Shown piece by piece: positions 13,449 to 29,848 of a stretch of DNA of 51,064 nucleotides (positions are counted from its first letter, which is position 1; every line of letters starts with the position of its first letter). The position numbers and the translations under genes were made by a program. Source of the stretch: Thermoleophilaceae bacterium (GTDB taxonomy: Bacteria; Actinomycetota; Thermoleophilia; Solirubrobacterales; Thermoleophilaceae); NCBI GenBank assembly GCA_030447905.1, contig JAUJNZ010000004.1:175181-226244 (forward strand), in the 5' to 3' direction. The notes under the pieces are model-generated. The model did not search any database, was not told the DNA's origin, and saw only the letters and a list, made by a program, of their open reading frames with translations.

Positions 13449-13691
13449 CTAGAGCGGCAGCTTCCCGCGGCCCATACGGCCCTTGGCGGCGCTCTTGTTG
13501 GTCGCCTTGCGCGACGAGCTGAAGGGCTTCTGGAGCAGCCGGCCGAGCGGACCGGGTGCCTTGCCGCCGGCGCGCTGACCGACGCTCAGGGTGCGGTCCA
13601 CGCCGCGCTGAGGGTGGCGCGACAGCCTCGGCACTAGGAACGCCAGCACGAGTAGGACGACGCACACGGCGGCGATGACGGCGACGGTCAT
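13449..13691 (-). CDS. Small single-pass membrane protein with basic tail
   Basis: An 80-aa protein: one membrane helix at the very N-terminus (AVIAAVCVVLLVLAFLVP) followed by a basic Gly/Lys/Arg-rich cytoplasmic tail containing KAPGPLGRLLQKPFSSSRKA and GRMGRGKLPL. ATG 13691 starts directly before the helix. I do not recognise a functional family; the tail looks conserved in composition and may bind nucleic acid or the membrane surface. It lies upstream of, and on the same strand as, the PhoD-like gene, with 29 nt between them, so the two may be cotranscribed. Confidence 0.6.
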   Translation of the reverse strand: MTVAVIAAVCVVLLVLAFLVPRLSRHPQRGVDRTLSVGQRAGGKAPGPLGRLLQKPFSSSRKATNKSAAKGRMGRGKLPL

Positions 13692-25873: not shown

Positions 25874-26509
25874 CTACTTCTTGGCCTTCTCGAAGTAGGG
25901 GTTCGTGCCCGAGGCGTGGTCGGTCACGTCGACCACCTGGTGGATCTCGGGAACGTTGTCCTTGATCGCCACCTCGATGCCCTGGCCGAGCGTCACCGTC
26001 GCCATGCCGCAGCCCTGGCAGCCGCCGCTCAGGCGCAGGTAGGCGGACTCACCCTCCACGGCGACCAGGTCGGCGCGGCCTCCGTGGGCGGCGATCGCCG
26101 GGTTGACCTGCTGCTCGAGCACCTGCAGCACCTGCTGGGCGACGTCGCCGCTGAGGTCGGCGGACGCGCCGCCGCCTACCGCGGGGCTCGGGCTCGTCAG
26201 GCCGAGCAGCCTCAGGCCGCCCGCGAAAGGATCCCCCGACCACTCGACGGTGACGCCGCGCAGCTTCTCCACGTCGGGCTCGGGGACCACGATCGTCAGC
26301 TCCCCGTGGGTCTCCACGGCGTCGTCCGGCTCGGCCTCGTCGACCGGCCGCAGGGAGAGGTTGTACGTCCACTCCCCGCCCGAGATCCCCGTGATCTCGA
26401 TCCACATGGCCTGGCGCTCGGGCGTGGGAGCCTGCTCGCGAAAGCCGAGGATCTTCTCGATCGCCTCGTCGGTGACGGCGAGGAGGGTTGTCGAGCCGTC
26501 GATGGTCAT
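25874..26509 (-). CDS. Nfu/NifU-type Fe-S cluster scaffold or carrier protein
   Basis: A 211-aa protein with the NfuA-like two-domain layout: an N-terminal A-type (HesB/IscA-like) domain lacking the ligand cysteines (about 1-110) and a C-terminal NifU domain (about 120-200) with VNPAIAAHGGRADLVAVEG and the cluster-binding CxxC in LSGGCQGCGMA. It delivers 4Fe-4S clusters to client enzymes. The start codon lies 35 bp from that of the divergent ATP-grasp gene, so both share one small control region; the radical SAM enzyme downstream of that ATP-grasp is a plausible client, but this is inference. Confidence 0.92.
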   Translation of the reverse strand: MTIDGSTTLLAVTDEAIEKILGFREQAPTPERQAMWIEITGISGGEWTYNLSLRPVDEAEPDDAVETHGELTIVVPEPDVEKLRGVTVEWSGDPFAGGLRLLGLTSPSPAVGGGASADLSGDVAQQVLQVLEQQVNPAIAAHGGRADLVAVEGESAYLRLSGGCQGCGMATVTLGQGIEVAIKDNVPEIHQVVDVTDHASGTNPYFEKAKK

Positions 26510-26532
26510 GGGGCAAGCGGTCGCGCGCCGCC

Positions 26533-26538
26533 TACGAT
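26533..26538 (+). promoter_or_regulatory. Candidate -10 element (TACGAT) for the ATP-grasp/radical SAM operon
   Basis: TACGAT ends 6 nt before GTG 26545 with no Shine-Dalgarno sequence between, as expected for a leaderless transcript. The opposite strand has TATCGT at the same place, which could serve the divergent nfu gene. No strong -35. Inference from position. Confidence 0.3.
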
Positions 26539-26544
26539 AGCGGT

Positions 26545-27813
26545 GTGTCCCGCGTCCTGCTGATCCTGCCCTCGGGCACCTACAGGGCTCCCGACTTCCT
26601 GGCCGCGGCCCGCGCTCTCGGGGTCGAGGTCGTCGTTGCCTCGGACCGCCGCCAAGCCATGTCGGGCATGCTCGGCGACCGGGCCCTCACGGTGAGCCTG
26701 CGCGAGCCCGAGGCCGCCGCGGAGCGGATCGTCGCGCTCTCCGAGCGGACCCCGCTCGACGCCGTGGTGGCCGCGGACGACGGCGGCGTGCTCGCCGCCG
26801 CCCTCGCCTGCCAGCGGCTCGGTCTGCGCGGCAACCCGCCCGCGGCGGCGACCCGGACGCGCGACAAGGCGGCGCTGCGCGAGGCGCTCGCCGCCGCGGG
26901 GGTCGCGCAGCCCGACTTTCGCGTCGCTGCGCCCGGGGCCGAGGTCGGGCGACTCGCGCGGGAGGTCGGCCTCCCGTGCGTGGTCAAGCCGCTCTCCCTC
27001 GCGGCGAGCCGGGGCGTGATCCGCGCCGACGACCCCGGCGCCGCCGCCCGCGCGGCCGAGCGCGCGCGAGACATCCTCGCCGAGGCCGGCCACGAGCCCG
27101 CGCGCGAGCCGCTGCTCGTCGAGCGCTATGTCCCGGGGGCCGAGGTCGCCGTGGAGGGGCTCCTGCGCGCGGGGGAGCTCGAGATCCTCGCCGTCTTCGA
27201 CAAGCCGGATCCGCTCGAGGGTCCGTACTTCGAGGAGACCTTGCTCGTCACGCCCTCGCGCCTTCCCGCGCCGAGCGTCCGGGCCGTCGAGCGGGCGACC
27301 GCTGCGGCCGCCGACGCTCTCGGGCTCAGAGAGGGCCCGGTCCACGCCGAGCTGCGGGTGACGAGCGGGGGAGAGGTCGCGGTCCTCGAGCTCGCCGCGC
27401 GGACCGTCGGAGGGCTCTGCGCCCGCACGTTGCGCTTCGGCCTCGGCGTATCGCTCGAGGAGCTCGTGCTGCGCCAGGCGCTCGGGCTGCCGCTCGCGGG
27501 GCTCGAGCGCGAGCGCTCGGCCGCGGGCGTGATGATGCTGCCCGTGCCGCGCGCGGGCGTGCTCGAGGGGGTGCGCGGCCAAGATCAGGCGCTCGCGGTC
27601 GCGGGGATCGCCGGCCTCGAGCTGTCGCTCCGCCCCGGCGCGGCGATGCGACCGCTTCCCGAGGGCGACCGCTACCTGGGCTTTCTCTTCGCCCGCGCCC
27701 AGAGCCCAGACCAGGTCGAGCGCGCCCTCCGCGATGCGCACGCAGAGCTCGAGGTCCGGGTCGCCGTTCCCGCGGGGGCGAGCCGCCCACCGTCGGCTGC
27801 GGTGCCCGCATGA
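26545..27813 (+). CDS. ATP-grasp domain ligase, partner of the selenocysteine radical SAM protein
   Basis: A 422-aa carboxylate-amine/thiol ligase-like protein. An N-terminal pre-ATP-grasp Rossmann segment (RVLLILPSGTYRAPDFL, VVASDRRQAM) is followed by the ATP-grasp core: LPCVVKPLSLAASRGV (nucleotide-binding Lys), LLVERYVPGAEVAVEG, VHAELRVT and VLELAARTVGGLCARTL (Mg/ATP ligands), resembling the CPSase-L/ATP-grasp_4 branch. It would activate a carboxylate as acyl phosphate and couple it to a nucleophile; the substrate is unknown. GTG 26545 starts at the first beta strand. Its stop TGA overlaps the ATG of the radical SAM gene (ATGA), so the two are translationally coupled and probably act in one pathway. 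Confidence 0.88.
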   Translation: MSRVLLILPSGTYRAPDFLAAARALGVEVVVASDRRQAMSGMLGDRALTVSLREPEAAAERIVALSERTPLDAVVAADDGGVLAAALACQRLGLRGNPPAAATRTRDKAALREALAAAGVAQPDFRVAAPGAEVGRLAREVGLPCVVKPLSLAASRGVIRADDPGAAARAAERARDILAEAGHEPAREPLLVERYVPGAEVAVEGLLRAGELEILAVFDKPDPLEGPYFEETLLVTPSRLPAPSVRAVERATAAAADALGLREGPVHAELRVTSGGEVAVLELAARTVGGLCARTLRFGLGVSLEELVLRQALGLPLAGLERERSAAGVMMLPVPRAGVLEGVRGQDQALAVAGIAGLELSLRPGAAMRPLPEGDRYLGFLFARAQSPDQVERALRDAHAELEVRVAVPAGASRPPSAAVPA

Positions 27814-29222
27814 GGACGCTGCTCGTCTCCACCTACGAGCTCGGCCACCAGCCGCTCCATCTCGCCTCGCCGGCCGCCGCTCTACTCGAGGGCGGACACG
27901 AGGTCCGGTGCCTCGACCTCTCGGTCGAGCCGTGGAGGCCGGAGCTCGTCGACTCGTCCGATGCGGTCGCCTTCTCGGTGCCCATGCATACGGCCATGCG
28001 GCTCGCGCTGCCGGCGGCGCGAGCGGTACGCCGGCGGCGACCCGACCTGCCGATCTGCCTCTACGGCCTGTACGCGTCCGTGAGCCGCGACCTGACGGTC
28101 GGGGCGGTCGCCGACCGCGTGATCGCCGGCGAGTACGAGGCGGCCCTCGTCGCCTGGGTCGACGAGGTCGCGCGGGGCGAGGAAACCAGGGCACCCGCCG
28201 CCCGGTTCGATCTCCGCCTCGACCGTGCTTCCTTCTCCGTTCCCGCCCGCCACCTCCTCCCGCCCCTCGAGCGCTACGCCCGCCTCGCCCTCGGCGGCGA
28301 GGAGCGCGTCGCGGGCTACGTGGAGGCCACGCACGGCTGCCGCCATCGCTGTCGACACTGCCCGCTGCCCGCGGTCTACGACGGAGCGCTGCGCGTCGTA
28401 GATCGCGACACGGTGCTGGCCGACGTCGAGCAGCTCGTCGAGCTCGGCGCGCGCCACATCACCTTTGGAGATCCCGACTTCCTCAACGGGCCGACGCACT
28501 CCCTGCGCCTCGTCCGCGCGGTGCGCGAGCGCTTTCCCGCGCTGACCTTCGATTGCACCGTCAAGGTCGAGCACGTCCTCGATCACGCCGAGCTGTGGCC
28601 CGAGCTGGCGGCGAGCGGCTGCCTGTTCGTCGTCACCGCGATCGAGTCGCTCAACGACGACATCCTCGGGCACCTCGACAAGGGGCATACCGCCGCCGAG
28701 GCGGACGCGGCGGTCGAGCTCCTGCGCGAGCAGGGCATCGAGCCACGGCCCACCTTCCTCCCGTTCACCCCATGGACGGCGCTCACCGACGTGCTCGACC
28801 TGCTCGGCTTCGTCGCCCGCCACGACCTCGTCGACAACGTCGACCCCGTGCAGTACTCGCTCAGGCTCCTCCTCCCGGAGGGCTCGTTGCTGCTCGACTC
28901 GCGCGACTCGACGCTGCGCCGGAGCCTCGGCTGCTACGACGCCGAGCGACTCACCTACGCGTGGAGCGCCGCCGACCCGATGGTCGACCTGCTGCAGGCG
29001 CGCCTGGCCGCGCTGACCGAGCAGGCCGCGGCGGCCGGTGAGCCTGCGACCGACACCTTCGCTCGCGTACGGGCGGCCACGCTCGAGGTCGCCGGCCTCG
29101 AGGCCGAGCCGGCGCTCGCTATCCCTCCAGGCTCGACGGAGGGGCGTCCGCGGCTGACCGAGCCCTGGTTCTGCTGAGCCGAGCCCACCGAGAGCCAGTT
29201 GGGCTCTCTGGAGGACGGCTAG
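27810..29222 (+). CDS. CUAEP-tail radical SAM selenoprotein (UGA-encoded Sec456)
   Basis: Radical SAM enzyme of 470 aa if the UGA at 29175-29177 is read as selenocysteine. The N-terminus (about 1-130) resembles a B12-binding fold but lacks the cobalamin DxHxxG motif. The 4Fe-4S site is CRHRCRHC (C177, C181, C184) in YVEATHGCRHRCRHCPLP, followed by HITFGDPDFLNGP and the rest of a partial TIM barrel. The frame reaches ...TEPWFC, then UGA, GCC GAG CCC: the tail C-U-A-E-P that defines the predicted CUAEP/CCAEP-tail radical SAM (seleno)protein family. Nine more residues (TESQLGSLED plus G) end at TAG 29220-29222. A SECIS-like hairpin follows the UGA. If UGA acts as a stop, the product is 455 aa and loses its conserved tail. 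Reaction and substrate are unknown. No sel genes lie in the window. Confidence 0.88.
29178..29211 (+). other. SECIS-like stem-loop downstream of the Sec UGA
   Basis: CCGAGAGCC (29188-29196) pairs fully with GGCTCTC-T-GG (29202-29211), leaving one bulged U (29209), closed by the loop AGUUG, which contains GU. The stem begins 10 nt after the UGA. Bacterial SECIS elements are stem-loops within the coding region just after the UGA, with a GU in the apical loop and a bulged U, so spacing and features agree; SelB recognition is not proven. The hairpin is also close to the shared end of two convergent genes and could help termination. Confidence 0.75.
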
Positions 29223-29848
29223 GCGGAGTATCCGAGCGCTCGCCGCCCCTGCGGCGCGAGCCCTCCGGGATGGGGTGAGCCATCGGGCGATTCGCCGGAG
29301 ATTCCCAGCCCCTCGGCCATGACCAGGAACGCGCGGGCATACGGCGACGCCTCCGTGCGCCGGCGCAGCGAAGGCCAGTCGATCTGCTCGCGCACCGACC
29401 GGGCGATCTCGAGCAGCGGCTCGAAGTCGAGGTAGTGCTCGTGCAGGGCGAGGAGCTTGGCGACGAGGACGTCCTCGACCTCCATGACGCGAATCGACAC
29501 GCCGAGCACGTCGCGCTTCGGGCTGCGCTCGAAGAGCTGGTCGTCCACCACCAGGCCGATCGGCTCGAAGATGAGGTCCACGAGCACATCGCCGTCCCTG
29601 GCCTTGAGGAGCCACTCCTCGGGAGGATCCTCGGCACCCAGGCCGGTCCCGACGAGCGCCTCGAGCGCACGCTCGGAGTCGCGCGGGCGTACCATGTAGT
29701 CCAGGTCGTGGGCCGACGGGGGCCCCCCGCGCGCCCAGCAGGCCACGCCGCCCGCGAGCACGAACTCGACGTCGGCCGCGTTGAGGGCGGCCGCCGTCTT
29801 CTTGAGGGTCTCCTGGATGTCGTCGAAGCTGGGGCCGGGCGGGCTCAT
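29219..29848 (-). CDS. Nucleotidyltransferase-fold protein
   Basis: A 209-aa protein of the Pol-beta-like nucleotidyltransferase superfamily: EFVLAGGVACWARGGPPSAHDLDYMV carries the GG and hDxDh signatures, followed by DVLVDLIF (third acidic residue) and a helical C-terminal part (VEDVLVAKLLALHEHYLDFEPLL). Such stand-alone domains occur in toxin-antitoxin (MNT/AbiEii-like) and resistance systems, but no HEPN or antitoxin partner is adjacent, so the role is open. Its stop codon and that of the selenoprotein gene overlap in the palindrome CTAG (29219-29222). Confidence 0.78.
   Translation of the reverse strand: MSPPGPSFDDIQETLKKTAAALNAADVEFVLAGGVACWARGGPPSAHDLDYMVRPRDSERALEALVGTGLGAEDPPEEWLLKARDGDVLVDLIFEPIGLVVDDQLFERSPKRDVLGVSIRVMEVEDVLVAKLLALHEHYLDFEPLLEIARSVREQIDWPSLRRRTEASPYARAFLVMAEGLGISGESPDGSPHPGGLAPQGRRALGYSA

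Follow-up and report, generated by a model that had tools for sequence, protein, structure and literature searches.

A radical SAM selenoprotein of the CUAEP family in a Thermoleophilaceae bacterium, its SECIS hairpin and conserved gene neighbours, and a possible relation to ArsL chemistry

The closest characterized relative of the protein described here is ArsL, the radical SAM enzyme of arsinothricin biosynthesis, which has been proposed to transfer the 3-amino-3-carboxypropyl (ACP) group of SAM to As(III), a proposal based on the finding that E. coli expressing ArsL produces AST-OH (PMC8552651). Radical SAM proteins that contain selenocysteine (Sec) are few; TrsS (NF045646) and the TIGR04167 protein share with ours a radical SAM fold and a predicted Sec but belong to different families, and the 2026 review of prokaryotic selenoproteins that treats them holds no entry for NF040546, CUAEP or CCAEP (PMC13188914). 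The CUAEP kind of selenoprotein does exist as a named database family (NCBIfam NF040546), albeit one whose model name states no reaction, operon or SECIS. An earlier sequence-only reading of this DNA held that the family has no established reaction; consistent with this, no paper naming it was found in the literature searched (most subscription journals lying outside its scope).

The window (the whole stretch of DNA that was analysed, 51,064 nucleotides of contig JAUJNZ010000004.1) carries a gene of this kind on its forward strand at 27810–29222. The frame opening at ATG 27810 runs through a UGA at 29175–29177 and meets no further stop until the TAG at 29220–29222, such that read-through would give a product of 470 residues with Sec at position 456 and the C-terminus LTEPWFC-U-AEPTESQLGSLEDG. 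This product matches NF040546 at 592.9 bits (cut-off 500) across residues 4–465 (profile positions 2–467 of 468), and its ending, PWFC-UGA-AEP, carries the C-[U/C]-A-E-P tail of the family. Since selenoproteins of this kind already have a named family in the database, the window gene is, as judged from its sequence, a new member of the CUAEP/CCAEP-tail radical SAM (seleno)proteins, in agreement with the family assignment of the sequence-only reading; the full-length match, the C-U-A-E-P tail and the alternation of Sec with Cys are common to both, and we see no essential difference between family and protein. According to Pfam, the protein joins an N-terminal B12-binding-like domain to a radical SAM core (PF04055), the CX3CX2C cluster motif of which (C177, C181, and C184; 28338–28361, forward strand) is invariant in 72 homologues. 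An AlphaFold2 model has a mean pLDDT of 94.3, with lower block averages (76–86) in residues 431–470; the nearest solved folds are those of OxsB, AprD4, and TsrM (Foldseek E-values between 5e-16 and 7e-15). All three are class B-like radical SAM enzymes; they resemble the model in fold but are only 16–19% identical in sequence. On the reverse strand, a convergent ORF with a nucleotidyltransferase match (PF14907/DUF2204; 29219–29848) overlaps the selenoprotein stop by a few bases at its end.

Among 98 homologues drawn from Actinomycetota, Chloroflexota, Acidobacteriota, Gemmatimonadota, KSB1, and Poribacteria, the codon column at Sec456 holds TGA, TGC, or TGT and nothing else (it should be noted that the pattern used to pick tails required Cys or a stop at this column, such that proteins with another residue there escape the count, and that the tails of four phylum-survey loci and three others, at contig ends or divergent, were not obtained). 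The flanking residues W453, C455, E458, and P459 are invariant, Cys takes the place of Sec in about half of the homologues with AEP kept downstream, and a tree of 81 proteins implies ~13 exchanges between Sec and Cys, at least six of which are forced by well-supported branches. The nearest relative (L046, on an independent MAG contig and 78% identical) carries the same UGA; this and the restricted codon column argue that the UGA did not arise by chance. Two genomes hold pairs of paralogous CUAEP genes (L021 and L045 in genome G032; L102 and L108 in the KSB1 genome JAKEEU01), all with UGA. A general reassignment of UGA to sense was rejected: the gene upstream ends in TGA (27811–27813), and selA, selB, and selD are without internal stops.

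Automated annotation treats the same codon as a terminator. On the megaplasmid of Thermomicrobium roseum (NC_011961.1, L146:7932–9368), a family member annotated by name has a CDS that ends …LTESWFC at the UGA, while the frame beyond continues AEPLEDPSGP; this is the loss of the tail to gene callers that the sequence-only reading had foreseen, and since callers cut the tail off, databases likely hold truncated copies of the family. The selA gene was not found on this megaplasmid (the only T. roseum replicon searched), and the hairpin region there is unexceptional by folding energy (z -0.5). Such annotation is what a genuine stop codon, or an error in sequencing, followed by an untranslated AEP tail would lead one to expect, but that explanation is hardly credible for the window gene in the face of the UGA/Cys column, the several Sec/Cys exchanges, the conserved E458 and P459, and the SECIS covariation and sel genes described below.

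A 7-bp hairpin (29190–29208, forward strand; 29190–29196 paired with 29202–29208 around the loop AGUUG at 29197–29201) begins 12 nt after the UGA. The general form of the loop is AGUUN, with G29198 invariant in the UGA set. Across 44 UGA genes (excluding L034, another UGA gene, which carries an indel), pairs form in 89.9% of cells, two-sided changes are seen in six of the seven pairs, and the covariation score is 0.491 versus 0.222 when shuffled and at most 0.172 for slid versions of the hairpin; pairing at these columns is 39.8% in 46 Cys genes, equal to the shuffle level. On the strength of this covariation in UGA genes and shuffle-level pairing in Cys genes, comparative analysis identifies the hairpin as a real SECIS, selected as RNA only where UGA is used, and the covariation evidence for it is new here. 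The stem had been predicted as 9 bp with a bulged U, and the window RNA does fold in this way (9 bp starting 10 nt after the UGA, bulged U29209, loop AGUUG; 48 nt, -25.2 kcal/mol, z -3.1); covariation, however, is confined to the inner 7 bp, and the outer two pairs and bulged U, although present in the window's own fold, do not separate UGA from Cys genes. An Rfam search of the region returned no SECIS match, only a chance match to a microRNA.

All four sel genes are present in the same genome: selA (C1:12204–13523) adjoins selB (a 714-aa frame on the same contig), selD lies on contig C4, and one tRNA above the gathering score (68.7 bits) is a tRNA-Sec with anticodon TCA (UCA in RNA). Across the family, selA is present in 33 of 40 Sec-tail versus 14 of 30 Cys-tail genomes (Fisher p 0.002, relatedness ignored; with relatedness corrected, the six independent pairs are too few to demonstrate the association), and its absence from seven Sec-tail genomes may reflect draft incompleteness, the two of these with a stated completeness being 78–83% complete. 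The window's genome also holds, at C19:11961–14107 (L141, L142, and L144), a formate dehydrogenase alpha-like gene in two overlapping frames near 13550, which is either frameshifted or split and has no in-frame stop within the matches. UGA 29175 is thus almost certainly decoded by SelB and tRNA-Sec via the hairpin at 29190–29208, yielding a 470-aa selenoprotein with an adjacent Cys455-Sec456 pair. The sequence-only reading, which had called this residue selenocysteine and mentioned a CCAEP variant of the family, is borne out in both respects by the codon column, the SECIS covariation, the sel genes, and the Sec/Cys exchanges; homologues aligned past the UGA do not end at the preceding Cys. It is the covarying SECIS that makes the selenoprotein call solid.

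What the sequence-only reading overlooked, while correct in its family and Sec calls, was the kinship with ArsL and the conserved ligase neighbour. ArsL (NF040542) is the second-best model for the window protein, at 290.1 bits against a cut-off of 450 (residues 3–399). Pseudomonas ArsL is 33% identical to it over ~400 aa, and 42 of 64 near-invariant CUAEP positions are common to at least four of five ArsL/RCCLKC proteins, including C177/C181/C184, H216, D221, D223, E279, K291, P314, W322, and W385. Both proteins have an adjacent pair near the C-terminus, and the terminal Cys-Cys of ArsL falls on Cys455-Sec456, an alignment that is suggestive, the tail being short and the linker gapped. The window protein differs from ArsL in its CUAEP tail (in place of RCCLKC-COOH) and its longer linker; membership of ArsL was rejected on score, on the FCUAEP… tail, and on a gene context without arsenic genes. 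A survey of 396 genomes of the phylum turned up no ArsL above cut-off.

Upstream on the same strand lies the gene of an ATP-grasp L-amino-acid ligase (26488–27813; PF13535 94.5 bits, and the LAL_C2 domain, PF18603, 57.1 bits), the stop of which overlaps the radical SAM start (ATGA, 27810–27813) and the true start of which is probably GTG 26545. Among solved structures, its nearest relatives are BL00235 (3vot, E 2.9e-46) and BacD (3vmm), both L-amino-acid ligases, although the window ligase is not itself BacD (69.5 bits versus a cut-off of 850). Divergent from the ligase gene, on the reverse strand at 25874–26509, is an Fe-S carrier with a degenerate A-type domain and a NifU domain with CxxC (PF01106), labeled NfuA-like because its TIGR03341 (NfuA) score of 89.9 bits is under the cut-off of 269. 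Among the 46 loci with enough flank, an ATP-grasp gene lies within 5 kb of the radical SAM gene in 29 (versus 0/35 at 5–10 kb) and an NfuA-like gene in 31 (versus 1/35). DUF169 is a partner in 15 of the 46 and is absent from the window's own genome. Gene order and strand are altered in KSB1, Poribacteria, Chloroflexota, and Acidobacteriota, with the association often kept; about a third of loci lack an ATP-grasp gene in this 5-kb range, including a lineage with an adjacent aceE. The conserved unit of radical SAM protein, L-amino-acid ligase, and NfuA-like carrier is new here, in that the literature searched (again with most subscription journals outside its scope) yielded no description of it as a functional unit, nor any paper on DUF169 with radical SAM or on arsinothricin with ATP-grasp.

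Other genes accompany the family in particular lineages. In Chloroflexota (L059, L064, L067–L070, L073, L079, and L084), lipB, lipA, aceE, and dihydrolipoyl acyltransferase genes come next after a Cys-tail radical SAM gene; in Acidimicrobiia (L096–L099, L103, L107, and L111), aceE lies upstream of the radical SAM gene, and a NifS-like gene is nearby in some members of this class.

An ATP-grasp gene is likewise found in several ArsL-type loci: RCCLKC radical SAM genes of Alicyclobacillus, Priestia, Pantoea, and Klebsiella adjoin an ATP-grasp ligase gene and many arsenic genes, ligases from the two types of locus sharing only 25% identity. The plasmids concerned (L148–L151) combine the RCCLKC protein and ligase with a GTP-binding protein; most also encode an MFS transporter and carry a putative arsM, and these arsinothricin-like clusters may make a ligated (dipeptide-like) arsenical. 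CUAEP loci differ in that they lack ars genes and are associated instead with NfuA-like genes and, in certain lineages, with DUF169, lipA/lipB, or aceE; arsM, arsR, arsQ, arsN1, and arsenite transporter genes are nearly missing from all 78 CUAEP loci, the window included, with ArsM- or ArsR-like genes in just one or two. This bears directly on the idea that the window protein is a Sec-dependent ArsL, a direct arsenical enzyme whose product is hydroxyarsinothricin or its dipeptide. Selenolates are strong ligands of As(III), and both the ArsL homology and the shared ATP-grasp neighbour would follow naturally; yet RCCLKC loci are rich in precisely those genes (arsM, arsR, arsN1, arsenite transporter) of which CUAEP loci have almost none. 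Because the ars genes are missing, we regard a direct arsenic role as very unlikely, and the acceptor in CUAEP enzymes is probably not arsenic.

Relatives and gene neighbours suggest rather that the enzyme builds an unusual amino acid, which its partner joins to another molecule. Sec codon conservation, the SECIS, the sel genes, the homology to ArsL, and the conserved gene unit are observed, and from these we infer ACP chemistry, a role for the tail, a kind of acceptor, and an order of steps as follows. The flexible Cys-Sec tail, in place of the Cys-Cys of ArsL, would hold or present a soft acceptor to the radical, candidates being a metalloid, a chalcogen, or another thiophilic species; the enzyme would then attach the SAM-derived ACP group to this acceptor to form a 2-amino-4-X-butanoate, and the co-operonic ATP-grasp ligase would join this amino acid to another molecule, giving a dipeptide-like product. 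We assign the whole chain, from ACP addition on a Cys-Sec-held acceptor to ligation, a probability of about 0.4. Counting for it are the rank of ArsL as second-best model together with the aligned Cys pair of the tail, the relation of the ligase to BL00235/BacD, and the presence of a ligase beside RCCLKC radical SAM proteins; counting against it are the score below the ArsL cut-off, the differing tails, the lack of arsenic genes, the third or so of loci without ATP-grasp, and the 25% identity between ligases. The chain also leaves unexplained why the unit of one lineage extends into lipB/lipA/aceE.

The same tail lends itself to two further explanations. Cys-Sec could act as a redox couple (a selenenylsulfide, as in the tails of thioredoxin reductases) that supplies reducing equivalents or returns the active site to its starting state, with ordinary 5′-deoxyadenosyl chemistry taking place on an organic substrate later used by the ligase. 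Frequent Sec/Cys exchange, as seen on the tree, is typical of redox selenoproteins; the two residues are adjacent on a C-terminal tail that is predicted with lower confidence (76–86, residues 431–470), arsenic genes are not nearby, and the nearest folds (OxsB, AprD4, and TsrM) include 5′-deoxyadenosyl enzymes. The closest relative by sequence, however, is proposed to perform ACP chemistry and has a tail Cys pair that aligns with Cys-Sec, and no thioredoxin-like partner was recognized among the conserved neighbours; we consider a redox role possible but rather improbable.

Alternatively, Cys-Sec could ligate an auxiliary Fe-S cluster, which would be consumed or remodeled (insertion of S or Se, as in LipA/BioB); the usual proximity of an NfuA-like cluster-repair protein (within 5 kb in 31/46 loci, as above) would then be explained. 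In lipoyl synthase, the auxiliary cluster is supported by NFU proteins (e.g. PMC9585516), lipB and lipA stand directly next in the Chloroflexota loci, and the NifS-like gene of some Acidimicrobiia would fit the same picture. Against this, Nfu proteins act in ordinary 4Fe-4S maturation as well, lipA is not nearby in most loci (the window among them), and the tail offers just two possible Cys/Sec ligands, the only other invariant Cys residues being those of CX3CX2C; a ligand role for the tail is, in our estimate, unlikely.

For experiment, the relationship with ArsL, in which Cys-Cys matches Cys-Sec, yields a specific chemical hypothesis for a family that has been named but assigned no reaction; the conserved ligase and Fe-S carrier genes indicate what to co-express, and natural Cys-tail variants, such as that of Thermogemmatispora aurantia A1-2, allow the chemistry to be tested without selenium technology. 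Taken at its broadest, the ACP-ligase proposal would describe a hitherto undescribed biosynthetic unit, widespread in Actinomycetota, Chloroflexota, and several candidate phyla; its Sec-dependent radical SAM enzyme would add ACP to a non-arsenic soft acceptor held by Cys-Sec, and its ATP-grasp partner would ligate the product, with a possible tie in some lineages to lipoate/pyruvate dehydrogenase metabolism. We put this broad form forward as a tentative and somewhat doubtful picture; if true, such a widespread unit would represent both a new chemistry and a new metabolite.
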